A stretch of DNA of 64,000 nt from Leuconostoc mesenteroides subsp. mesenteroides ATCC 8293. GTDB lineage: Bacteria > Bacillota > Bacilli > Lactobacillales > Lactobacillaceae. Every line of letters starts with the position of its first letter. Position 1 is the first letter of the stretch. Location of the stretch: contig NC_008531.1 in the NCBI RefSeq assembly GCF_000014445.1, positions 1,147,001-1,211,000 of the forward strand. Reading direction: 5' to 3'. Positions 9,732 through 27,138 of the stretch are shown one piece after another. The position numbers were made by a program, and so were the translations under genes. The notes below the pieces were generated by a model. The model ran no database searches. It was not told where the DNA came from and saw only the letters and a list, made by a program, of their open reading frames with translations.

Positions 9732-10613
9732 TTATTGCCAAGCTTGCAATAATTCATTAATTGTCAGCTGCCCAGGAGCACTTCCTTGTGTACCATCAAG
9801 TACTGCAAAGGTCATTTCTGACCCATATTCATATCCCTCGATACGGCTACTTTTACCTATCTCTCCCATGCTCATCGTGATTAATGGTTGCGAAATATTG
9901 ACGTTCTTAGTTGTTTGCAATAGGTAATCAACGTCTTTTTCGGATTCAGGCATGACAGCCAATTTGATAATATCTGCTGAAGTATCAGCCATATCACTGA
10001 TTAAAGCTGGCAAATTTTTAGGGGTAGATTCAAAATCATGGTATGACAGTAATACTGGAATATTGGCTTTATTGGCTGCGTCCATAATACTTTGTCGTAG
10101 CGGCTCATCTAATGTATATTCAACATCAACAGCTGCAAACGGAAATCCCGAGTGTAAAGCAGTAATCATAAAAGTGGCATACTCGGTTGGACTCATTTCG
10201 CCACGACCACCCTGTGCAACCGTACGATATGTTAACAACACCGGAAAACCACCAATACTATTAAACACCGTACCAGTTAACTCTTTAATAATTTGAACAT
10301 TTATTTGTGGCCAATTAGCCATGAATTCTTGCTTGGCATTATCAATTTCTGACAACATTTTCGCTTCTGTCATGGCAGAAACGTCTTTTTGCGCCAATTC
10401 ACTTTGTGCCCCAGCCTTAACTTGTTGCCACATAACCGCCTGACTAAAGTCATCTGCGATGTAATCTGCCCGCCATTCAACAATGTCTGGATTTTGTTGT
10501 TGTAGTTTTTGAGCGAACGGACTAATTTTGTCCGTAGGTCCTAAAGTTAGGGGGACTGCTATAATCGGTTTATTCGTACTGCTAGGTATGTTTAATAGTT
10601 CTCTTAATGTCAT
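9732..10613 (-). CDS. aroD: 3-Dehydroquinate dehydratase, type I
   Basis: Class I dehydroquinase, which forms a Schiff base and dehydrates dehydroquinate to dehydroshikimate. Active-site features are EWRADY (about 46-51), LSYHDF (catalytic His), DIIKLAVM (Schiff-base Lys), ITMSMGEIGKSSR and GSAPGQ near the end. At 293 residues it is about 40 longer than usual. The extra sequence falls at about residues 60-110, between the EWRAD strand and the PVLLTYRT strand. Last gene of the operon, overlapping the PheA-like gene by 4 bases. Confidence 0.92.
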   Translation of the reverse strand: MTLRELLNIPSSTNKPIIAVPLTLGPTDKISPFAQKLQQQNPDIVEWRADYIADDFSQAVMWQQVKAGAQSELAQKDVSAMTEAKMLSEIDNAKQEFMANWPQINVQIIKELTGTVFNSIGGFPVLLTYRTVAQGGRGEMSPTEYATFMITALHSGFPFAAVDVEYTLDEPLRQSIMDAANKANIPVLLSYHDFESTPKNLPALISDMADTSADIIKLAVMPESEKDVDYLLQTTKNVNISQPLITMSMGEIGKSSRIEGYEYGSEMTFAVLDGTQGSAPGQLTINELLQAWQ

Positions 10614-11164
10614 AGGACTCTATAGACGATCCAAACCATCTGAGGCTTTAATTGTTGCCTAATTTGGTATTTTTCGTCACTACTTTCAGGTAATTTTTTG
10701 AATTGTTCTTCAGAAACAATTGTAAACCGATTTTGTTCTTTTATAAAGCTCTGTAATGCAACAATTTTACTTGGTGCAAACATCACTGACGGCCCCCAAG
10801 CATTATCTAAATTCACAGAGGTTAAATATCTTTTCATTAAGCCTTCTGTGGCCGCATGGACTATTGCTACATTTCGCTCAAATTGGGTATTTTCAATCAC
10901 ACTCATCGTCATTAAGGGTAGCGAAAATGTTTTTTCAATTGCAAGCTGTGACCAATTTAAATAATTAAAGTCGGCCCAATTCAAATCTGGTTCCTGATTA
11001 GACTTAAATGCAACTGGTAAAATTATTTTATCCCCTTTATAGTCACTTAGATGCAATAAAACTTCTTCAAGACTATTGTGCAAAATTAGGGTTTCGTCCG
11101 TTAAATAATATTGTGCTGCCTGTTCAGAATCTGTGCCACTTGGTCCTAATGTGTGAAGTTTCAT
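10610..11164 (-). CDS. Prephenate dehydratase-like protein, divergent, no ACT domain
   Basis: 184 residues. The N-terminus TLGPSGTDSEQAAQYY matches the first motif of prephenate dehydratases (LGPxGTxSxxAA), and gene order places it after chorismate mutase and prephenate dehydrogenase. The usual PIENS motif is replaced by LPVAFKS, the TRF/STAxA motifs are not recognisable, and there is no C-terminal ACT domain. It resembles the short PDT-like fold of BacA (prephenate decarboxylase) as much as PheA. Context argues for phenylpyruvate formation, but catalysis is uncertain. It lies 3 bases after aroK and overlaps aroD by 4. Confidence 0.6.
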   Translation of the reverse strand: MKLHTLGPSGTDSEQAAQYYLTDETLILHNSLEEVLLHLSDYKGDKIILPVAFKSNQEPDLNWADFNYLNWSQLAIEKTFSLPLMTMSVIENTQFERNVAIVHAATEGLMKRYLTSVNLDNAWGPSVMFAPSKIVALQSFIKEQNRFTIVSEEQFKKLPESSDEKYQIRQQLKPQMVWIVYRVL

Positions 11165-11167
11165 AAA

Positions 11168-11968
11168 TCACCTATTTAATTGCCTATTCTCTTTGTCAAT
11201 GGCAGCCTGCATCAAAATGGTCATAATACCATCAATCATGTCATCTGTGATATCTACAGAAGTACTAAAATCTGATTTCAATTCCTTACGTAACTTTAAC
11301 ATACGATCCTGTTGAATCGTTGGTATACCAAATTTTTCTTTATAACGAGCCACTGCTTCAACAATCTGAAAACGTTCCGAAATAATTTTAAAAATTTGAC
11401 GATCAAATGCATCTATCTGTGAACGCAATTGTAGTAGTGCTAGTTCATCCTCATTAGCGCTAAATAAGGCAATAATCTCAGCTGCAATACGCGCCGGTGT
11501 TTTACCAACTGTTTCTACGGTGAAATTGGCAACTTCTTCGTACTTTGGGTCACGTTCCTGCCATAATGCAAAGAATTCCGCCGTCGATTTTTCTTGAAGT
11601 AACGGGCGCTGTCCTTCAAGAATTAAGCGGCCAATAGTACTTTCTAAATTGCCATGTAAATAAATAATTGTCGCTGGAGAATGGCGCAGAATTTCTAAGT
11701 TTTCTGGTCGTTCCACTACACCCCCGCCCGTGGCAACAACACCATCAAATGTTTGCACATTATTTAAAACTTTGGTTTCTAACTCACGGAAGCCGGCTTC
11801 GCCACGTTCTTCAAAAATTTCTGCGATTGATTTACCGGCAGCACGTTCAATTTCAGAATCAATATCTACGAACTTTGAATGATGTTGCCGAGCAATTTCC
11901 TTACCCACAGTCGTTTTCCCAGCACCCATAAACCCAATAAGCATTAATGTATCTGGTTCTTTAATCAT
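11168..11968 (-). CDS. aroK: Shikimate kinase fused to chorismate mutase
   Basis: 266 residues with two domains. Residues 1 to about 172 are shikimate kinase: P-loop GFMGAGKTT (12-20), DIDSEIE, FRELE, TGGGVV and the lid EGQRPLL. Residues from about 178 form a type II (AroQ) chorismate mutase: LRSQIDAFDRQIFKIISERF, the ARYKEKFG lysine helix, QQDRMLKLRKEL and a closing helix. One protein would therefore phosphorylate shikimate and later rearrange chorismate to prephenate. The fused domain is the only chorismate mutase seen in the operon. The gene starts 7 bases after tyrA. Confidence 0.88.
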   Translation of the reverse strand: MIKEPDTLMLIGFMGAGKTTVGKEIARQHHSKFVDIDSEIERAAGKSIAEIFEERGEAGFRELETKVLNNVQTFDGVVATGGGVVERPENLEILRHSPATIIYLHGNLESTIGRLILEGQRPLLQEKSTAEFFALWQERDPKYEEVANFTVETVGKTPARIAAEIIALFSANEDELALLQLRSQIDAFDRQIFKIISERFQIVEAVARYKEKFGIPTIQQDRMLKLRKELKSDFSTSVDITDDMIDGIMTILMQAAIDKENRQLNR

Positions 11969-11975
11969 AATTTTC

Positions 11976-12833
11976 TCACTTTAACAATAAATTTTTTCTT
12001 GACTCCTGTGCTGACGAAATTAAAGTCATCAAAGTTGATGCATCATTATCTTCAATTGCTTGAGAAAATAATTGTAATTGCTCGATTATCAAGGACTGAC
12101 TAGTTAATATTGCTTCTTTGTTGCTTAACAATACATCAGTCCATAACTTTGGATCACTTTCCGCTATGCGTGTCATATCTTTGAAGCCACCAGCAACATA
12201 CTGTCCAAATGTCGTTGAATCGCCCAGCTGGTTAGTGGCAGTATTCATTAATGCAAAAGACATAATATGCGGTATATCACTAATTACAGCCATCAGCTCA
12301 TCGTGTTTCTTGACTGAAATTGGCATAAATTTAGCGGCAATCGGTTCAAGAATTTCCTGCAACCTACGAGCATTAGAAATTGAACTTGGAATTAAGAAAT
12401 AAGGCACATCTTGATACAGTTTTTCATTTGCCCACTCAACACCGCTCCGATGAGTACCGGCCATAGCATGCCCACCAACGAAATGAATATTTTTTGGTGT
12501 CAAAACTGCTTCAGCCACATCCATAATATCTCGTTTTGTCGATCCTGTATCCGTAACAATTACCTCTTTTTTTAGAGATAGTTGAGATAATGAACGAATC
12601 ATTTCTTCAATATAAGTTACTGGTGTGGCCAAGATAATAACATCAGCATGAGATGCAACATTTACTAAATTAGAAGCTGCCCCAAAAACAATACCATGAT
12701 CTTTTGCATAGCTGAGCGACTTTTCATTAATATCAACACCTATTACTTGGTTTTTTGGCTCTTTGTTTAAAATTTTGGCTAACGATGCCCCCATTTCGCC
12801 AAGACCCACAACAACGATATTTTTCATAACCAT
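11976..12833 (-). CDS. tyrA: Prephenate dehydrogenase
   Basis: 285-residue NAD(P)-dependent enzyme making 4-hydroxyphenylpyruvate for tyrosine. Rossmann motif VGLGEMGASLA (about 9-19), the NAD-specificity acid GVDINEKS, TDTGSTKRDI, GGHAMAGTHRSGVEW (catalytic His region) and DIPHIMSFAL are as in TyrA. There is no C-terminal ACT domain. Two in-frame ATGs (12833 and 12827) are close together. It overlaps aroA by 10 bases. Confidence 0.93.
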   Translation of the reverse strand: MVMKNIVVVGLGEMGASLAKILNKEPKNQVIGVDINEKSLSYAKDHGIVFGAASNLVNVASHADVIILATPVTYIEEMIRSLSQLSLKKEVIVTDTGSTKRDIMDVAEAVLTPKNIHFVGGHAMAGTHRSGVEWANEKLYQDVPYFLIPSSISNARRLQEILEPIAAKFMPISVKKHDELMAVISDIPHIMSFALMNTATNQLGDSTTFGQYVAGGFKDMTRIAESDPKLWTDVLLSNKEAILTSQSLIIEQLQLFSQAIEDNDASTLMTLISSAQESRKNLLLK

Positions 12834-14128
12834 TCTCTCTTAATTGAGGACACATCTTCTACAAATCCAGGATACGACACACTCATAGCTTCTTCACCGG
12901 TTAATACTACATCCCCTTCAGTAATGAGAGAAGCAATCACGTTCATCATACCAATGCGATGATCCCCATGTGAGTCAAGTAGTGTTGAGCCATTTGACGT
13001 GTGCAAGAGCGTTCCACCATGAATAACCATACCATCTGGCTTCTCATCAATATCAGCGCCCAATTTAGTTAGCTCACTAATGACTGTCGAAATTCTGTCA
13101 GTTTCTTTTACACGTAATTCCTCTGCACCACTTATAATCGTGTCTCCCACAGCTTGTGTAGCAGCTAGAGCAAGAATGGGCAGTTCATCAACTGCACCAG
13201 GAATATCCTCAGCAGTAATTGCAATACCGTGTAAAGTTTGTGCTTTGACCGTGATATCAGCCAACGGTTCTCCATCAGATGCAATCGGTTTCTGAGTAAT
13301 TTCTGCACCCATCCGTTCAAGCAATTTAATCACACCATCACGCGTTGGATTGACACCGACCTTTTTAATGGTAATTTCCGAGTTTGGTGTAATTAAACCA
13401 GCCACCATGAAAAATGCAGCACTTGAGATATCCGATGGTACTAAAACATGCTGACCGCTTAGTTTTGACTGCTTTTTAACAGTAATTACACCGTTATCTG
13501 TTTTAATTTGCCCACCAAACTGACGGAGCATGCGCTCTGTATGATCTCTTGATGGTAGATCTTCGATAATCGTTGTTTCACCCTCAGCTTGTATGCCCGC
13601 TAGCAAAATAGCACTTTTGACCTGCGCTGATGCTACCGGCATATGATAAGTAATACCATTTAGTTCAGTATTGGCCTTAATTACAGCTGGTAAGAACTCG
13701 TCATTAGATAATTCAAATTGCGCATTCATCATTGACAACGGGTCGGCAACACGACGCAATGGTCGCTTGCTCAGTGATGAATCACCAAAAATATTCAGAT
13801 CAAACGGTTGCTTACTTAGCAATCCCATGAGGAGACGAGTTGAAGTTCCTGAATTGCCCATATCTAATCCAGCAGATGGTGCCTTAAAATTTGTAAGGCC
13901 TTTACCAATAACTGTAGCTTGTGATTCTGTGTGGTCAATTTCCACACCAAGCGCACGAAAAACACCCATGGTATGCATCACATCATCTGACATCAAAAAA
14001 TTATCAATGACAGTTTTCCCCTCAGCTATCGCACCAAACATCAATGCTCGATGTGATATTGACTTGTCGCCAGGAACTGTTATTTCTCCATGAAGGCCAT
14101 TTTTTTCTGCTTTAGTGAGTTTAATCAT
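12824..14128 (-). CDS. aroA: EPSP synthase
   Basis: 434-residue 3-phosphoshikimate 1-carboxyvinyltransferase. PGDKSISHRA (about 19-28, shikimate-phosphate/PEP lysine), GNSGTSTRL (about 92-100), SAQVKSAILL, PSRDHTERML, DEPILA-like VDELPILALAA and the C-terminal DHRIGM are intact. The substitution pattern (GNSGTS rather than GNAGTA) is common in Firmicutes. A 46-base gap to aroC carries a UUCG hairpin. Confidence 0.97.
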   Translation of the reverse strand: MIKLTKAEKNGLHGEITVPGDKSISHRALMFGAIAEGKTVIDNFLMSDDVMHTMGVFRALGVEIDHTESQATVIGKGLTNFKAPSAGLDMGNSGTSTRLLMGLLSKQPFDLNIFGDSSLSKRPLRRVADPLSMMNAQFELSNDEFLPAVIKANTELNGITYHMPVASAQVKSAILLAGIQAEGETTIIEDLPSRDHTERMLRQFGGQIKTDNGVITVKKQSKLSGQHVLVPSDISSAAFFMVAGLITPNSEITIKKVGVNPTRDGVIKLLERMGAEITQKPIASDGEPLADITVKAQTLHGIAITAEDIPGAVDELPILALAATQAVGDTIISGAEELRVKETDRISTVISELTKLGADIDEKPDGMVIHGGTLLHTSNGSTLLDSHGDHRIGMMNVIASLITEGDVVLTGEEAMSVSYPGFVEDVSSIKREWL

Positions 14129-14139
14129 CTCTTTTTATC

Positions 14140-14172
14140 CTTTGTTCATAATATGTACTATAGCCGAAGCTA
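14140..14172 (-). other. Intercistronic UUCG-capped hairpin, aroC-aroA
   Basis: Minus-strand TATAGC-TTCG-GCTATA forms a 6-bp hairpin with a UUCG loop, followed by GTACATA. It occupies the only sizeable gap inside the aromatic operon. A very similar element lies between carB and pyrF. It lacks a T-run, so RNA processing or stability is more likely than termination. Confidence 0.6.
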
Positions 14173-14174
14173 TA

Positions 14175-15353
14175 TTAAAACTTTCTTATTTCTTCACGAT
14201 ACACTGCCACTTGTTCTTTCATCCGTTCAATGTTATCTGCATCAAATTTATCCAAAACAGCTTTAGCTAACTCAATTGCTACCATTGCCTCAGCAATTAC
14301 AGCAGCGGCAGTAACTGCAGTTGTATCTGAGCGTTCTATCGATGCACGGTGGTCTTCGTGTGTATCAATGTCAACTGACTGCATAGGACGATACAAAGTA
14401 GGAATAGGCTTAACAACACCACGAACAACAATTGCTTCTCCTGTCGTCATACCACCTTCAAAACCACCGAGATTATCAGAACCACGATAAAAGCCACGTT
14501 CTTCGTCCCAAAAAATTTCATCCATGACTTGATCGCCATACTTTTCTGCGTTATCAAAACCACCACCAAATTGAACACCTTTGAAGGCATTGATGCCAAC
14601 AATAGCGTTGGCAATTTTAGCGTCTAACTTTGTATCGGCAGATACATATGATCCCAATCCAACAGGCATACCTGTCGCAATAACTTGGACTTGGCCTCCT
14701 ACAGTATTTGCATCACGCTTTGTTTTATCAATTACTTCTTTAATAGCTTCATCAGCTTCAGCATTTAGAGCACGTGTGTCGAAACCTTCTGTCACAACAC
14801 GCAACTCTTGCAGGTTCTTATACTTAGTTAACTCATTTAGGTCGGACTTAGCAGGTCCAACATTCACAACGAAACCATGAACATCAACACCTATTTCGGA
14901 AAGTAATTTTTTGGCAACAGCACCAACTGCAACACGCATTGTCGTTTCACGAGCCGAAGATCTTTCCAAAACATTGCGTAAATCTTCACGGTGACGATAC
15001 TTCATCCCACCAACCAAATCAGCATGTCCTGGACGCGGGCGCAACACCTTACGGAGCGTATTTTCTGCTGTTGCTGGCTCATTAGGGGCCATAATTTTCG
15101 ACCAATTATTATGATCATCGTTGTGAACATTCAATGTAATTGGTGATCCAAGTGTTGTTTGGTGACGAACACCTGTCAAAAAGGTAACTGTATCAGTTTC
15201 GATTTTTTGACGTTCACCACGACCATAACCACGCTGACGTCGAGCTAATTGCTCATTAACATCTTCTTGACTGATGTGTAATCCGGCAGGAATACCTTCA
15301 ATAACAGCAATTTCTTCAGGGCCATGGCTTTCACCAGCAGTAACATATCTCAT
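14175..15353 (-). CDS. aroC: Chorismate synthase
   Basis: 392-residue FMN-dependent enzyme converting EPSP to chorismate. Motifs TAGESHGP, RRQRGYGRG, RPRPGHADL, the RSSARET signature and the GGMTTGEAI and DxHxD-like THEDHRAS regions are present. The start is the ATG at 15351-15353, 7 bases after GGAG; an upstream in-frame ATG at 15368 would put this Shine-Dalgarno inside the gene. It is nearly contiguous with aroB. Confidence 0.97.
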   Translation of the reverse strand: MRYVTAGESHGPEEIAVIEGIPAGLHISQEDVNEQLARRQRGYGRGERQKIETDTVTFLTGVRHQTTLGSPITLNVHNDDHNNWSKIMAPNEPATAENTLRKVLRPRPGHADLVGGMKYRHREDLRNVLERSSARETTMRVAVGAVAKKLLSEIGVDVHGFVVNVGPAKSDLNELTKYKNLQELRVVTEGFDTRALNAEADEAIKEVIDKTKRDANTVGGQVQVIATGMPVGLGSYVSADTKLDAKIANAIVGINAFKGVQFGGGFDNAEKYGDQVMDEIFWDEERGFYRGSDNLGGFEGGMTTGEAIVVRGVVKPIPTLYRPMQSVDIDTHEDHRASIERSDTTAVTAAAVIAEAMVAIELAKAVLDKFDADNIERMKEQVAVYREEIRKF

Positions 15354-15354
15354 A

Positions 15355-16419
15355 TTAATTCTCCACAAATGCCGGCATGTCGGCGATTTTTTTCTTTACA
15401 ATAATTGGCTGACCTACTTTTTCAAGAGCCACTAAATTCAAAATACCATCATGATTTTTTTTATCATTGATCAAGTGGTTAAAGAAGTCAGTTGTCCCGA
15501 TAAAATGCGAATGTGTTGGTAAACCAACAGCTTCCAATCGACTTAATAATTCAGTAGTTAGCCCTCTAGGCATTATACCATGTTGTTCAAATCGACTGCT
15601 AATAGCAATCATACCAATCGCCACAGCTTCACCATGACGTAATTCACCATGAGCTAATAGTTCAATCGCGTGACCAAAAGTATGCCCAAAATTCAGAAAC
15701 TGGCGGTCTCCAGCTTCTTTTTCATCAGCCATCACTACACTAGCCTTATAAGCAATCGCACGTTTTGACAATTCTTGCGCATGATGACGTATATCTGCTA
15801 CCGATTTGATTTGACCAGTAAAATCAAAAAAGTCTTGATTAGCCAATGCTGATGTTTTAACAACTTCCGCATATCCTTCAACTAAATCACGGTCCGTCAG
15901 TGTATTCAAATAAGTAACATCAACTAAATCTAAATCCGGCTGATAAAAAGAGCCAGCAATATTTTTTGTATTACCAAGATTCACGGCTGTCTTACCACCA
16001 ACCGACGAATCAACTTGAGCTGTTAATGACGTCGCAATTTGAATAAAAGCAATTCCGCGCATGTACAAAGAGGCGACTACTCCACCTAAATCACCAATAA
16101 CGCCACCACCTAATGCAATAACACCATCGCCACGTGTAAATCCAGCAGCTGCCATTTTAGCAATCAATTCACCGGCCACTGACAAAGATTTTGATGACTC
16201 TCCAGCGGGAACTTCTAACTCGAGTATATCAAATCCTACTTCACGTAATTGCTTTGCTGTATCCTTTAAATACAATGGCCCAACGTTGCTATCTGTTAAT
16301 AGTGAAATCTTTCGCGCAGACCACACAGCCGATATTTCTTGGCCAAGACGTGTGTGTAAAGTGTTATCAATTTTCACATCATACTTTTTTGTCGCTAAAT
16401 CAACTGTAATTGTGCTCAT
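15355..16419 (-). CDS. aroB: 3-Dehydroquinate synthase
   Basis: 354-residue NAD- and metal-dependent cyclase making dehydroquinate from DAHP. PAGESSKS, the nucleotide loop ALGGGVIGDLGG, QIATSLTAQVDSSVGGKTAVN and the metal-ligand segment NFGHTFGHAIE are all visible. The start overlaps the end of aroF by 4 bases (ATGA). Confidence 0.97.
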   Translation of the reverse strand: MSTITVDLATKKYDVKIDNTLHTRLGQEISAVWSARKISLLTDSNVGPLYLKDTAKQLREVGFDILELEVPAGESSKSLSVAGELIAKMAAAGFTRGDGVIALGGGVIGDLGGVVASLYMRGIAFIQIATSLTAQVDSSVGGKTAVNLGNTKNIAGSFYQPDLDLVDVTYLNTLTDRDLVEGYAEVVKTSALANQDFFDFTGQIKSVADIRHHAQELSKRAIAYKASVVMADEKEAGDRQFLNFGHTFGHAIELLAHGELRHGEAVAIGMIAISSRFEQHGIMPRGLTTELLSRLEAVGLPTHSHFIGTTDFFNHLINDKKNHDGILNLVALEKVGQPIIVKKKIADMPAFVEN

Positions 16420-17408
16420 TTAATGGCCTCGCGCACCTTGTTTGCCTTCTCTGTCAATTGTTTGAATTGTGCTGGTGTCAATGCTTGGGCACCATCAACA
16501 AATGCATGTGACGGATCATCATGTATTTCGGTCATCAAACCTTGTGCACCAGCAGCAATTGCAGCTAAAGCAAGCGGTTCAACAAACTTTGAAACACCAG
16601 CCGCATGTGAAGCATCCGCAACAACAGGATAGTGAGTTAGCGATTGTAAAACAGGAATGGCTGATACATCAAGCGTATTACGCGTGTACTTATTATCATA
16701 AGTACGAATACCACGTTCCATCAAAATAATCTGATCATTCCCACCAGCAGCAATGTATTCAGCAGCATTAAGCAAATCATCGATGGTTGCTGACATACCA
16801 CGTTTCAAAACTACGGGCTTGTTCTTCTTTCCCAGGGCCTTAAGCAAAGCAAAGTTTTGCATATTACGCGTACCGACTTGGAAAATATCTGTGTAAGAAT
16901 CAACTAAATCCACATCTCGTGTATCTAAGATTTCGGTTACCATATCCATTCCCAACGCATCTGCTGCTGCGCGATGGGCTTTTAAACCTTCTTCGCCATT
17001 ACCTTGAAATGAATATGGAGATGTACGTGGCTTGAAAGCCCCGCCGCGCAAGATAGTTGCGCCCGCCTGCTTAACATCTTCACCCATTTCTTTAACATGT
17101 TCGGGAGATTCGATTGAATCAGGGCCAGCCATGAAGACGAAGTTACCACCACCGATGACACTATGTTTAGTTGTAATAATTGTATCCTCTGGGTGGAAGT
17201 CACGTGATGACTTGATGGCTGAATGATGGTTTGTGATTATTTCAACAACGTCTTGTGATATATTTTTCAATATATCTTCGGGTAACTTTTTCACGCCGGC
17301 TAACGCAACTCTATTACTGTGAACAAACACTGGTTTAATAGGGTCTTTGGTATCTAATTGCGCTGCAATTTTTTCTGCATCTTGACTTGTCTTTGCGATA
17401 ATAATCAT
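16416..17408 (-). CDS. aroF: DAHP synthase, type I-beta with N-terminal ferredoxin-like domain
   Basis: 330 residues. Residues 1 to about 66 form a ferredoxin-like regulatory domain as in the Thermotoga-type enzyme; the barrel follows. It condenses PEP and erythrose-4-phosphate, the first committed step. Seen: LRGGAFKPRTSPYSFQG, QVGTRNMQNF, KRGMSAT, DASHAAG (metal His) and MTEIHDDPSHAFVDGAQ (metal Glu and Asp). The first metal ligand is unusual: the canonical AGPCSVES is AGPDSIES, an Asp at residue 97 (17118-17120) where Cys normally sits. Start ATG 17408 has GAGG 9 bases upstream. It follows aroE by 4 bases. Confidence 0.93.
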   Translation of the reverse strand: MIIIAKTSQDAEKIAAQLDTKDPIKPVFVHSNRVALAGVKKLPEDILKNISQDVVEIITNHHSAIKSSRDFHPEDTIITTKHSVIGGGNFVFMAGPDSIESPEHVKEMGEDVKQAGATILRGGAFKPRTSPYSFQGNGEEGLKAHRAAADALGMDMVTEILDTRDVDLVDSYTDIFQVGTRNMQNFALLKALGKKNKPVVLKRGMSATIDDLLNAAEYIAAGGNDQIILMERGIRTYDNKYTRNTLDVSAIPVLQSLTHYPVVADASHAAGVSKFVEPLALAAIAAGAQGLMTEIHDDPSHAFVDGAQALTPAQFKQLTEKANKVREAIK

Positions 17409-17412
17409 TGTT

Positions 17413-18237
17413 TTATTCCTCAATTGCTTTCTTCATAAGATTTCTGTCAGCTGGCCTGTCGAACCAATATTCAAAGCTTAGCGCTCCTTGATTGACTAAC
17501 ATCGGCAAACCATTTAATGTTGCTAATCCACGTTGGTTAGCAGATTTCAATAATGTAGTTTGTTGATTACGATAAATCATGTCCACCACCAAGGCGTGCT
17601 GTGGTAGTAATGCTATTTGCAAATCCGTTAATAGCGTCCGCAAATCATTCATCCCAACGGTGGTGGCATTGATAAGCATATCAGCACGCTTTAATGCTTT
17701 GGTGAGCATCTGATTATCTGCTAAATCCTCTAGATGCCCATTCCCCTCACTAAGATAGCTAATCTCTGCTTTTCGCTCATGCCAATCTTCATGAACTCTA
17801 TTAAACACAATTAATTCCCTCACGCCATACAGTTTCGCAGTGGCAATCACTGATCTAGCTGCTCCGCCAGTACCCAGTACAATAACCATTTCTTTGGGTT
17901 GGCGAGAATTAATACTTTGCCAGAACCCGTCTCCATCTGTGTTAGTGCCAATCAGATGCCCTTTAACACTTTTAACCGTATTCACCGCATGAAGCCGCTG
18001 AGATATTGGCGATAGCTCATCCAAATATTGAATAATTTCATTTTTAAACGGTGTTGAAACATTGAATCCGCCTACGTGTAGGGCTTTTAATCCAACGATG
18101 GCCTCTTCAAGTTTTTCTGGTAAAATGTTGAAAGCGTGATAGTGTGCATCAATACCATATTCAGCTATCATCATGTTTTGCATTTGCGGCGAACGTGAAT
18201 GTCCGGCCGGATGCGCGATTAATCCATATAAAGTCAT
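17413..18237 (-). CDS. aroE: Shikimate dehydrogenase
   Basis: 274-residue NADP-dependent reductase of dehydroshikimate. Motifs are HSRSPQMQN (substrate serines), NVSTPFKNEI (catalytic Lys; STPFK where many enzymes have TIPHK), NTDGDGF (Asp), VLGTGGAARSV (Rossmann loop), NATTVGM and NQGALSFEYW. Length is normal. Overlaps tkt by 4 bases. Confidence 0.95.
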   Translation of the reverse strand: MTLYGLIAHPAGHSRSPQMQNMMIAEYGIDAHYHAFNILPEKLEEAIVGLKALHVGGFNVSTPFKNEIIQYLDELSPISQRLHAVNTVKSVKGHLIGTNTDGDGFWQSINSRQPKEMVIVLGTGGAARSVIATAKLYGVRELIVFNRVHEDWHERKAEISYLSEGNGHLEDLADNQMLTKALKRADMLINATTVGMNDLRTLLTDLQIALLPQHALVVDMIYRNQQTTLLKSANQRGLATLNGLPMLVNQGALSFEYWFDRPADRNLMKKAIEE

Positions 18238-20156
18238 TGTAACTCCTGTGTGATTTTATCGACGATATCTTCAGCATTAAATCCAAATTCGTCAAGAGCT
18301 ATTTGTGCTGCCGCACTCATACCAAATTCATCAATACCAAATATTACGCCATCATTGCCAGCAATTCCTTGCCAACCCAATGTTGTTCCTGCCTCTATTA
18401 TCACATTTTTTGTGCCCGTTTCGGGAATAATTTGTTGCTTTTTATCATCATCTAGCGCTAAGAATCGCGACAGATTTGGCATGGAAACAACGTTTGAAGG
18501 TAGTGACAGTAATTCACTCACCTTCTGTGCTATTTGGACTTCGGATCCAGTAGCAATCAAGTTAATTTTAGCCTCATCATGATGTCTTATTTGTACCGCG
18601 CCATTTTCAAATGATTGTTTTGCTTGATCTGTGCTTCCTTGAGCACCAATTTCGCCACGACTTAAAATTAAGATTGTTGGTCGATCAGTTGACGTCAACG
18701 CCCGCTGCCAAGCGCTGGCTATCTCTTCGGCTGTCCCTGGACGCAATACATCAACACCCGGAATCAGACGAAGCCCCATCAGTTGTTCAACCGGTTGATG
18801 TGTTGGTCCATCTTCGCCAACCGTAATACTGTCATGCGTAAAAACATAAATACTCGGCACATGCTGCAAGGCACTCAAACGAATAGCTGCCTTCATATAA
18901 TCCGAAAAAGCCAAGAATGTCGCGCCAAATACTTTTGTACCACCGTGTAAAGCTATCCCATTCATTACCGCGCCCATGCCAAACTCACGCACACCAAACG
19001 CAATATTTCTACCCGATCGATCATCGGCGTTGAACAATGGTGAAGCCACCACTTCAGCATTAGTAGATGCTACCAAGTCAGCTGATCCACCCCATAATTG
19101 TGGTAATTGTGTCGCAAAGTTTTGCAACACATATTTAGATATTTTTCGGCCTGCTTGTACTTTCAAATCAGTCGGTAACTCGGGGATGGTCACCGTGTTT
19201 TTAGTTGAGAATTGCAGATAATCGGTTAATTCGTCATTCAAAGGTTGTTTTTGATGCAAAAGTCTATTCGAAATTTTAGCACGCAAGTCTTCAAGCAAAT
19301 TACTTGGTAATTCAAAATTTTGTATATCAACATCAAGCGCTGATGAAAGATCTTGCAATTGTTGACTATCTAGTGGTGTGCCGTGAGCCTTGTTAGTGCC
19401 AGCGAACGGTCCAAAATCACCAATAATTGTTTTCACAGCAATCAACGTGGGCTCAGGAGACATTTTAGCATTTTCAATTGCATCGTGAATGGCTTCTAAA
19501 TCATTACCATCTGCCACCTCACGTATATCCCAACCATAACTGGCAAAGCGCGCTAGATTATTTGATATATCTGACCTTTTCTTCAAACCATCAAGACTGA
19601 CAGCATTATCATCATAAAGAACAACCAACTTACCGAGCTTTTGTTGACCAGCGAGTGACGCTACTTCATGGCTCACCCCCTCCATTAAATCCCCATCACC
19701 AACTAGCGCAAATGTAAAATGGTCAATCACTGAGGGAAATTGGTTATTGAGCTTTGCTTCAGCCATTGCCATACCAACAGCCATACCCAATCCTTGCCCA
19801 AGTGGTCCAGTTGTTGCTTCAACACCAGGCGTCACACCAACTTCTGGATGTCCAGGCGTTTTTGAATGTGGTTGTCGAAATTCTGATAAATCTTGGGCTG
19901 ACAGGTCAAAGCCAGCTGCATGTAAAGTCGCATACAGTAATGCGGCACCGTGACCAGCAGACAAAACGAAACGATCGCGATTAATCATATTAGGATTCTC
20001 GGGATCAACATTAAGTTGATTTGCATACAACTCATACAAAATTGGTGCAGCACCCAAAGCAATGCCAGGGTGCCCAGAACCAGCTTTGCTAATCATTTGG
20101 TTAGACAGCAACCTCAACGACTGAATTGTTTCTGTTGACAATGATGATGTTTTCAT
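18234..20156 (-). CDS. tkt: Transketolase
   Basis: 640-residue TPP enzyme of the pentose phosphate pathway, a source of erythrose-4-phosphate. GSGHPGIALG, GHG-AALLY, the TPP/metal motif GDGDLMEG, catalytic-His regions (AHGTPL) and the pyrimidine-domain VREFGMGAVMNG and THDSITVGEDGPTHQP are intact. The start is ATG 20154-20156 with AAGGAG 6 bases upstream; a longer frame to 20198 would translate the attenuator terminator and is rejected. As first gene of the aro operon it probably feeds DAHP synthase and comes directly under the leader attenuator. Confidence 0.95.
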   Translation of the reverse strand: MKTSSLSTETIQSLRLLSNQMISKAGSGHPGIALGAAPILYELYANQLNVDPENPNMINRDRFVLSAGHGAALLYATLHAAGFDLSAQDLSEFRQPHSKTPGHPEVGVTPGVEATTGPLGQGLGMAVGMAMAEAKLNNQFPSVIDHFTFALVGDGDLMEGVSHEVASLAGQQKLGKLVVLYDDNAVSLDGLKKRSDISNNLARFASYGWDIREVADGNDLEAIHDAIENAKMSPEPTLIAVKTIIGDFGPFAGTNKAHGTPLDSQQLQDLSSALDVDIQNFELPSNLLEDLRAKISNRLLHQKQPLNDELTDYLQFSTKNTVTIPELPTDLKVQAGRKISKYVLQNFATQLPQLWGGSADLVASTNAEVVASPLFNADDRSGRNIAFGVREFGMGAVMNGIALHGGTKVFGATFLAFSDYMKAAIRLSALQHVPSIYVFTHDSITVGEDGPTHQPVEQLMGLRLIPGVDVLRPGTAEEIASAWQRALTSTDRPTILILSRGEIGAQGSTDQAKQSFENGAVQIRHHDEAKINLIATGSEVQIAQKVSELLSLPSNVVSMPNLSRFLALDDDKKQQIIPETGTKNVIIEAGTTLGWQGIAGNDGVIFGIDEFGMSAAAQIALDEFGFNAEDIVDKITQELQ

Positions 20157-20171
20157 GAGATTCTCCTTAAA

Positions 20172-20210
20172 TAAAAATCGTACTAAGTGAGTAAACACCT
20201 AGTACGATTT
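20172..20210 (-). terminator. Attenuator terminator of the aro operon
   Basis: A 15-bp stem (20175-20189 with 20196-20210, one G-U in RNA) followed on the minus strand by TTTTTATTT, ending a few bases before the tkt Shine-Dalgarno. Its 5' arm contains CTAGGTGTTT (complement of 20193-20202), which can instead pair with an upstream segment (20246-20255), so the terminator is switchable. Confidence 0.88.
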
Positions 20211-20243
20211 AACAGAAAATTACACTCCTGAAAACATAAAAGC

Positions 20244-20378
20244 CACTAGGTGTTTAATATCAACACTTAGTGACTCAACCTTGAAAAACTTCTGGTCGCT
20301 AAGTGCGTCGTAACCGACGCACTTATAATGCGACGGCTCTACATAAACCAGAAGTAGTAATAACTATTATTTTTCAAG
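20244..20378 (-). promoter_or_regulatory. Competing-hairpin leader of the aro operon (attenuator)
   Basis: Minus-strand RNA folds: P1 (20370-20378 with 20280-20288, 9 bp), P2 (20347-20354 with 20289-20296, 8 bp), P3 (20315-20324 with 20301-20310, 10 bp), then B:C (20262-20272 with 20244-20254, one mismatch). Alternative pairs are A:B (20295-20306 with 20263-20274, 11 of 12) and C:D (20246-20255 with 20193-20202, 10 bp perfect), where D is the terminator 5' arm. The 5' strand of P2 is made of the Tyr-Phe-Trp-Phe codons of the leader peptide, linking translation to folding. Confidence 0.85.
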
Positions 20379-20392
20379 ACTTTGCTGTTCAT
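20339..20392 (-). CDS. Aromatic leader peptide (attenuation), MNSKVLKNNSYYYFWFM
   Basis: A 17-codon reading frame from ATG (20390-20392) to TAG (20339-20341). Codons 11-16 are Tyr-Tyr-Tyr-Phe-Trp-Phe, a run of aromatic residues covering all three end products of the operon. It begins about 25-30 bases after the predicted transcription start; the Shine-Dalgarno (GAG 8 bases upstream) is weak. The control codons form one arm of hairpin P2. This is the classic design of ribosome-mediated transcription attenuation: stalling at aromatic codons would open P2 and favour the antiterminator. No gene name is assigned because I know of no described homologue. Confidence 0.88.
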   Translation of the reverse strand: MNSKVLKNNSYYYFWFM

Positions 20393-20422
20393 AATTTTTC
20401 TCATTCTTATTTGATGTAATTA

Positions 20423-20451
20423 ACTATACATTCATTTATTATAAATGTCAA
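20423..20451 (-). promoter_or_regulatory. Promoter of the aro operon
   Basis: Minus-strand TTGACA (20446-20451), 17 bases, TATAGT (20423-20428): near-consensus sigma-A promoter. Immediately upstream lies a perfect 8-bp inverted repeat, agtttatt/aataaact (20453-20470), which could be an operator or a weak terminator for trpG. Confidence 0.88.
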
Positions 20452-20537
20452 CAGTTTATTAAAATAAACTTCATTACATCATTAATTCCTCATGAAAAAA
20501 GCTTTTATTCTTGCACTAGATTTCATTATTATAGTTT

Positions 20538-26822: not shown

Positions 26823-27115
26823 ACCGTCCTGAAAAATTTGCTTTTGCAAAAATTTCAGGACGGTTTTCCCGCGGTGCCACCTGATTTCGTTTAAATCAAA
26901 TGGTACCCAAAAAGCCCACTCGAGTTAAAACGCGTCTCAACAGTTATCTAACAATAACCTGATCACTTACGTGGATCTTACGTTTGGCAGTACTTGAGAT
27001 TGCTCTCGTTCAACCAACCCTCAACGGTCCATTTGCCATGTTGCGTTCGGCCCTACTTCCAGTAACAAGGGCTCCCTTTACGTGCACACATGGTTTGATC
27101 TCCGTCTCATCAGTT
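26823..27115 (-). promoter_or_regulatory. Trp-specific T-box leader
   Basis: The conserved T-box core AGGTGGCACCGCG lies at 26870-26882 (minus), followed by a long terminator hairpin (26823-26864) with a T-run. Stem I begins near 27110 with the GA-rich GATGAGACGGAGAT kink-turn region. The likely specifier is TGG (27029-27031), tryptophan, in AAATGGACC. The leader is of normal length with room for stems I-III. Uncharged tRNA-Trp should promote read-through into trpB-D-C-F-A-E-G. Confidence 0.93.
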
Positions 27116-27138
27116 TATGACGTTTTTAAATTACTATC

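Follow-up and report, generated by a model that had tools for sequence, protein, structure and literature searches.

A predicted leader-peptide attenuator with Tyr, Phe and Trp codons ahead of the aromatic operon of Leuconostoc mesenteroides, and related leaders in Lactobacillaceae

The leaders trpL and pheL serve one amino acid each, with four RNA strands and one terminator. The Leuconostoc leader described here resembles them in having regulatory codons within a short ORF, mutually exclusive hairpins and a U-tract terminator, the RNA elements being predicted in our case. Unlike them, it carries codons for three aromatic amino acids, about six strands and two terminators.

Both E. coli leaders are named as attenuators in the accessible text of PMC11802643. 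The same text describes aroR before aroF of C. glutamicum, a Phe-Tyr-Phe leader with ribosome-stalling attenuation that reportedly responds to limitation of Phe, not of Tyr. Like the Leuconostoc leader, aroR has consecutive aromatic codons in a leader peptide, and it precedes a DAHP synthase gene; as described there, however, it contains no Trp, and C. glutamicum belongs to another phylum. In the available part of PMC8632094, uORFC-13-1 is found before aroF in Acholeplasma and environmental sequences. It likewise combines a uORF holding Phe codon(s) with a terminator and precedes DAHP synthase, but it is characterized there by at least one Phe residue only, and its RNA differs. Table 7 of PMC1173090 lists predicted attenuators ahead of tyrA supraoperons, including those of E. 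faecalis and S. pneumoniae. These resemble the Leuconostoc case in preceding aromatic supraoperons, in two Lactobacillales, but they come from a terminator/antiterminator database, and the accessible portion of the source mentions neither leader peptides nor Leuconostoc. Leader-peptide attenuators of his genes are reported in the Bacillus cereus group, Peptostreptococcaceae and Erysipelotrichales (PMC9413887, accessible text); they too lie within Firmicutes and were found by comparison, but they concern histidine, and for the his genes of Lactobacillales that text reports T-boxes, not leaders. The S. aureus ilv operon, according to the accessible part of PMC5794164, has a Leu-rich attenuator responding to Leu, with CodY as a separate layer. 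It is again a leader-peptide attenuator in a Firmicute, although ilv concerns branched-chain amino acids.

We analysed a 64,000-nucleotide stretch of L. mesenteroides subsp. mesenteroides ATCC 8293 (the window). An initial annotation had placed a 17-codon frame between a near-consensus promoter and tkt, and the frame was indeed present. Between trpG and tkt, at the coordinates first given but on the minus strand (20392-20339), is the leader ORF, MNSKVLKNNSYYYFWFM followed by a stop; its ATG is at 20392-20390, its TAG at 20341-20339, and it has 17 codons in all. Codons 11-16 (20362-20345, minus strand) read UAU UAC UAC UUC UGG UUU, or Tyr-Tyr-Tyr-Phe-Trp-Phe, giving three Tyr, two Phe and one Trp. 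The promoter, TTGACA-17-TATAGT, was found at 20451-20423 (minus strand) before the frame, with tkt after it, and matches the consensus at 11 of 12 positions. Shuffles of the promoter stretch yielded a mean of 2.2 promoter-like sites, so that the match alone proves little; a similar -10 box is present in several relatives. The ribosome-binding site of the leader was judged by eye to be weak. The window holds 6,759 short frames (stop-to-stop, fewer than 60 codons), of which the leader ORF alone has a run of at least six aromatic codons. The expectation from 40 Markov-1 resamples was 0.15 such frames per window, or 0.05 with all three aromatics, in agreement with the earlier view that such a run is unlikely by chance.

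Downstream of the leader are ten shikimate-type genes on the minus strand. The first is tkt (transketolase, 18234-20156, by its Pfam domains), which would supply erythrose 4-phosphate. It is followed by aroE, DAHP synthase, aroB, aroC, aroA, tyrA, an aroK-chorismate mutase fusion, a gene without a family and aroD (9732-18237, Pfam). The operon thus covers chorismate synthesis and prephenate dehydrogenase, and the leader run codes for the aromatic end products. Its description as a ten-gene aromatic operon holds for nine of the ten genes, in which the expected Pfam domains were found, but the ninth gene (10610-11164) has none. The 184-aa protein of that gene matched no Pfam, NCBIfam or PDB sequence. 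It starts with LHTLGPSGTDSEQAA, which we take to resemble a motif of the prephenate dehydratase family, and it occupies the place where a prephenate dehydratase might be expected. L. carnosum is reported, in the accessible text of PMC7829361, to be without chorismate mutase and prephenate dehydratase. Together with the fused mutase (11168-11968), the 184-aa gene may account for the enzymes missing in L. carnosum. Elsewhere in the window, a T-box precedes trpB (26853-27119, minus strand; RF00230, 70.6 bits, E 2.5e-15). The default Rfam scan misses it because 70.6 bits is below the gathering score of 93.

We compared the leader DNA with 60 genomes. It was matched in 20 of them: 18 of the 19 Leuconostoc genomes, our own included, and 2 of 41 others, one each in two further genera. 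The nineteenth Leuconostoc genome (G014) was uninformative because its contig starts inside tkt; aroB, at least in part, is present in all 19. The gene after the leader is tkt in 18 of 20 loci and aroE, identified by eye, in the other two. The gene upstream, also named by eye, differs among the 21 loci: it is trpG in 4, a membrane protein of one kind in 9 and others in the rest. Since the upstream neighbour varies, the element belongs with the downstream genes.

The aligned leaders (alignment A1) form 21 rows, 20 of them distinct: 18 from Leuconostoc, our own included, one from the L. fallax genus and two of Convivina type. In all 21 the frame is open over 17-20 codons and includes a run of six aromatic codons. 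The initial annotation had proposed to look for such conservation, and in no row were the hairpins kept and the frame or its aromatic codons lost. The consensus of the run is Y, Y or F, Y, F, W, F, and variation inside it is limited to UAU/UAC or Tyr/Phe exchanges. At the second Tyr codon, 13 rows have UAU, four have UAC and four have Phe UUU. Four rows carry an in-frame 6-base insertion, and in the Convivina leaders the N-terminal codons differ with the aromatic run retained. Codons 13-16 are almost invariant at the base level too, and part of the leader conservation could reflect RNA pairing instead of peptide. The change in the second Tyr codon argues for coding, because this codon lies outside the OFF helices counted below and outside the 10-base stretch used in the partner comparison.

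The RNA after the start codon can be divided into strands, all on the minus strand, with two competing sets of partners. Two lie inside the ORF: strand 1a (UCUUGAAAAA, 20379-20370) can pair with region 2, and strand 1b (ACUUCUGGU, 20355-20347) can do so as well, its partner covarying with the codons across genera. Region 2 itself is ACCAGAAGUUUUUCAAGG (20279-20296). Directly 3' of the stop codon is s1a (GCCGUCGC, 20330-20337), which would be under a ribosome at the stop codon if the assumed footprint applies. Next come s1b (UAAGUGCGUCGGU, 20313-20325), with s1a as its partner in the ON register and s2 in the OFF register, and s2 (CGACGCACUUAGCGAC, 20295-20310), which pairs with s1b and s1a (OFF) or with s3 (ON). 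Terminator 1 (20232-20274, conserved helix 3) consists of s3 (20274-20264) and s4 (20252-20242), then UUUUAUGUUU. Terminator 2 (20169-20210) is the s5:s6 hairpin (20210-20175) with a U tract, and adjoins the tkt ribosome-binding site. Thus two terminator-like hairpins, both conserved, are predicted between leader and tkt. A simple terminator scan found terminator 2 (1 found vs 0.1 expected) and did not list terminator 1.

The OFF register contains the lower stem, s1b:s2, s3:s4 and s5:s6 (35 pairs). Across A1, 98.4% of its cells are paired, as against 20-41% for slid versions. Covariation was seen at 12 pairs with 26 double-change cells, a result matched by none of 500 shuffles. Terminator 2 (helix 4) contributed 20 of these cells, with double changes in 7 of its 8 pairs; s1b:s2 contributed three and terminator 1 three, the latter helix having 98.6% of its cells paired. 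The ON register contains s1a:s1b, s2:s3 and s4:s5 (25 pairs) and is paired in 97.0% of cells vs 26-44% when slid. It showed three double-change cells; its covariation score was reached by 123 of 500 shuffles and its pair types by 491 of 500. The ON register therefore rests on complementarity, not covariation, since its strands are mostly invariant, as expected if each strand serves two helices. By eye, s1a:s1b opens with ACCG:CGGU in most rows; the L. fallax row has GCCG:CGGC there, and L013 has CCCG:CGGG. The L013 pairs are misplaced in the alignment and absent from the ON covariation count.

Taken with its codons, we consider this leader very probably a ribosome-mediated transcription attenuator that senses Tyr, Phe and Trp through tRNA charging. 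The initial annotation had called the run a hallmark of such attenuation, and the kept frame and run, the terminator-like hairpins and the alternative pairings all support this. At the level of sequence, the comparison demonstrates a conserved ORF with its run, two predicted hairpins, a complementary alternative register and a partner of the codons that changes with them. We give about even chances to the following relay as the working antiterminator arrangement. When aromatics are plentiful, the ribosome would reach the stop codon and cover s1a; s1b would then pair with s2, s3 with s4 (terminator 1) and s5 with s6 (terminator 2), and transcription would stop. When charged Tyr-, Phe- or Trp-tRNA is short, the ribosome would stall in the run and leave s1a free to capture s1b; s2 would then capture s3 and s4 would capture s5, so that neither terminator would form. 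If there is no translation, the leader codons may pair with region 2 and hold the operon off. A single-switch model with only s1b:s2 (H3) was rejected. It has the wrong sign, as a ribosome at the stop codon would turn the operon on; the sign was corrected by adding s1a:s1b to the model.

The relay was examined by folding with an assumed footprint of about 16 bases from the P site, with which a ribosome on UAG would cover s1a. For s1a:s1b, the first hairpin to form, the probability was 1.0 in 21 of 21 nascent transcripts that end beyond s1b, with the ribosome at Tyr12, Tyr13, Phe14 or Trp15. It was 0.99-1.0 without a ribosome, 0-0.9 at Phe16 and, by construction, 0 at the stop codon. Under equilibrium folding with ribosome masks, both terminators formed at every ribosome position. 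With the ribosome at Trp15 and s3 out, ON was still less stable than OFF in 20 of the 21 sequences. The s2:s3 helix reached 0.3 in 3 of 13 sequences folded up to s3: L004 (0.33 at Tyr11, 0.64 at Trp15), L013 (0.44 at Trp15) and L020 (0.35 at the stop codon).

A crude, barrier-limited co-transcriptional simulation of the 21 sequences was run with a barrier of 5 or 8 kcal. At 5 kcal, terminator 1 formed in 33% with the ribosome at Tyr12, 52% at Trp15, 57% at the stop codon and 52% without ribosome. At 8 kcal the corresponding values were 71%, 95%, 95% and 71%. Terminator 2 showed no clear dependence on the ribosome (48-57% at 5 kcal, 76-81% at 8 kcal), s2:s3 formed in no more than 24% of the sequences and s4:s5 in no more than 5%, and the state without ribosome was not more off than the other states. 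Thus neither the crude simulation nor equilibrium folding yields a clean switch in these models, and we count this against the relay. Classical attenuators rely on kinetics too. On one reading, the early Tyr codons would be the most important, because a ribosome there would also cover strand 1a, whose pairing with region 2 would obstruct s2:s3.

We compared the codons with their downstream partner in 31 leaders. Ten consecutive bases of the run (the final two of one codon, the next codon, UGG and UU) were set against the 70 bases from the stop codon on; L084 (the twin of L094), L095, L096, L098, L102 and the leaders of other phyla were left out. A partner pairing at 9 or more of the 10 bases was found in 29 of the 31, compared with 260 of 1,550 (17%) in the shuffled control. 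In all 23 pathway-operon leaders compared, the partner starts 41-50 bases downstream of the first stop-codon base. Among the 29 leaders, the base that decides between Phe and Tyr pairs as U-A in 14, A-U in 14 and U-G in one, and the synonymous third base as C-G in 15, U-A in 11 and U-G in three. These counts are not independent events, because the rows are related (six from Leuconostoc, six from genus g3). From one genus to another, the predicted downstream partner changes together with the run codons. In L095 and L098, the best partner is near +102, off the usual place. The aminotransferase leaders L082 and L085 had no partner, and L103 and L104 had nominal partners only, which were unconvincing.

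So structured an RNA might also be an attenuator of another kind, either a ligand riboswitch or an element that binds a protein, with the ORF there only incidentally. The folding of the leader RNA is strong (z -7.3 vs shuffles), and much of it is invariant among the A1 rows. However, the frame survives insertions, synonymous changes and Tyr/Phe changes, and the aromatic run is kept in other genera where most of the surrounding RNA differs. Rfam 15 gave no gathering-level match at the leader, the sub-threshold matches there being at chance level (E 0.3-8), and no match at the leader in any of 20 related loci. The sole gathering-level match in those loci was a T-box in L079, about 450 bases off on the other strand. 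We regard this alternative as very improbable. A tRNA-sensing T-box in place of the ribosome sensor has next to no probability: the neighbouring trp operon does carry one, but cmscan, which detects that T-box at E 2.5e-15, returned none in 20100-20530 at E up to 10. Attenuation through the leader codons remains our preferred reading of the locus.

Related leaders were sought across the family. The pattern YxYFWF matched 47 of 397 family genomes and the reversed-pattern control 26; the genomic context was therefore checked at 30 returned loci. A covariance model of A1 gave strong full-length matches in 18 genomes of g1 (Leuconostoc), two of g7, one of g8 and one of g18. At E up to 1 it matched 131 of 397 genomes, many surely by chance. 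When weaker loci were examined, an aromatic leader was found in 8 of 8 (L078-L085) and in 16 of 20 further picks, which were chosen from the match list and include the weak match of G014. Altogether 13 genera have related leaders (g1, g3, g7, g8, g12, g13, g14, g18, g37, g39, g47, g49 and g55). These leaders precede tkt, aroE, DAHP synthase, aroC, a PLP-dependent aminotransferase, a TrpX-like ABC binding protein or a PTS_EIIC_2 protein; family models were run on 11 of the downstream genes, and the others were named by eye. The leader does precede this aro operon, as first noted, but it is not special to it: the class is spread through Lactobacillaceae.

Of 31 leaders outside A1, 26 have a terminator-like hairpin with a U tract no more than 330 bases downstream, a count made with no shuffled control; none was found within that distance after L027, L083, L087, L089 and L090. 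Inspection by eye of nine loci showed relays of consistent sign in other genera. By the same inspection, L093 has two terminators and alternating helices as in the window, and L029 has an alternation that involves the leader end, s2, s3 and the terminator strands.

Several of these leaders precede other kinds of genes. A second leader type, ..[YL]YFWFF.. followed by a stop, stands before a PLP-dependent aminotransferase in four genera (L026-L029, L082, L085, L087, L103 and L104). At L096, the leader NNYYYGYYG precedes a TrpX-like ABC binding protein whose score is below the curated cut-off; because this leader has Tyr codons and no Trp codons, it hints that the transporter has another substrate. 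At L102, NNYYYFYFFRKGL (YYYFYFF) precedes a PTS_EIIC_2 membrane protein (PF13303), suggesting a role of that protein in aromatic amino acid handling.

A wider pattern search returned 66 loci. Nineteen are Lactobacillaceae leaders, including L155, assigned by its peptide as the next gene is beyond the locus, and four are assigned as leaders before DAHP synthase (three in Ktedonobacter, one in Lyngbya); the remaining 43 were treated as chance. The leader NSYFYYWFSP was seen before DAHP synthase in Ktedonobacter (L125, L135 and L163, the next gene of L135 lying beyond the locus end) and in cyanobacteria (L157), and NYFYFWFTP before DAHP synthase in the cyanobacterial L176. Terminator-like hairpins are present in L125, L157 and L176. 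By eye, L157 has a simple three-strand form, and no clear antiterminator was seen in L125. In the order of Lyngbya, 5 of 120 genomes match the pattern and two, the query included, have leaders before DAHP synthase; in a sample of Chloroflexota, 1 of 101 matches, the query itself. Leaders outside Lactobacillaceae are sporadic in their two phyla.

The motif N-x-[YF]-[YF]-Y-[YF]-W-F recurs, with its residues in similar order, among Lactobacillaceae leaders and in those that precede DAHP synthase in Ktedonobacter and cyanobacteria; this bears on whether the ribosome is held by codon starvation or by the peptide itself. TnaC is a precedent for an arrest peptide. Under nascent-chain arrest, with free aromatic amino acids as the ligand, a conserved order would have a reason, as plain attenuation needs none. 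The distant cases, however, came from patterns that require that order, and among Lactobacillaceae many leaders may owe it to RNA pairing of their codons. The motif is also broken in some leaders (YYYGFYYF, YYYGYYG and YLYFWFF), and a stop-codon arrest driven by excess aromatics would be the wrong logic for a biosynthetic operon. We therefore think arrest in place of codon starvation quite improbable. It is rather unlikely, too, that the Lactobacillaceae leaders form a class in which one ribosome drives two serial terminators by the relay and the motif is kept because the nascent chain aids stalling.

The initial annotation knew of no such leader in a lactic acid bacterium. In the open-access literature, which misses most subscription journals, we found no aromatic leader peptide described for lactic acid bacteria; the claim of novelty is narrowed, however, by the two-aromatic aroR and by the listed Lactobacillales attenuators, which precede it. 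The mechanism class is a textbook one with a two-aromatic precedent, and what stands out is the coverage of three aromatics, the family-wide spread and the tandem terminators. The relay through two terminators is a variant of the textbook mechanism that can be tested. The aromatic leader operon adjoins a trp operon with its own T-box. Because the leaders occur in 13 genera and none had an Rfam match in the 20 loci compared, leader codons could serve to compile a regulon of genes for aromatic synthesis, transamination and transport. If the proposed attenuator is true, lactic acid bacteria would read all three aromatic end products in one transcript of the common pathway.
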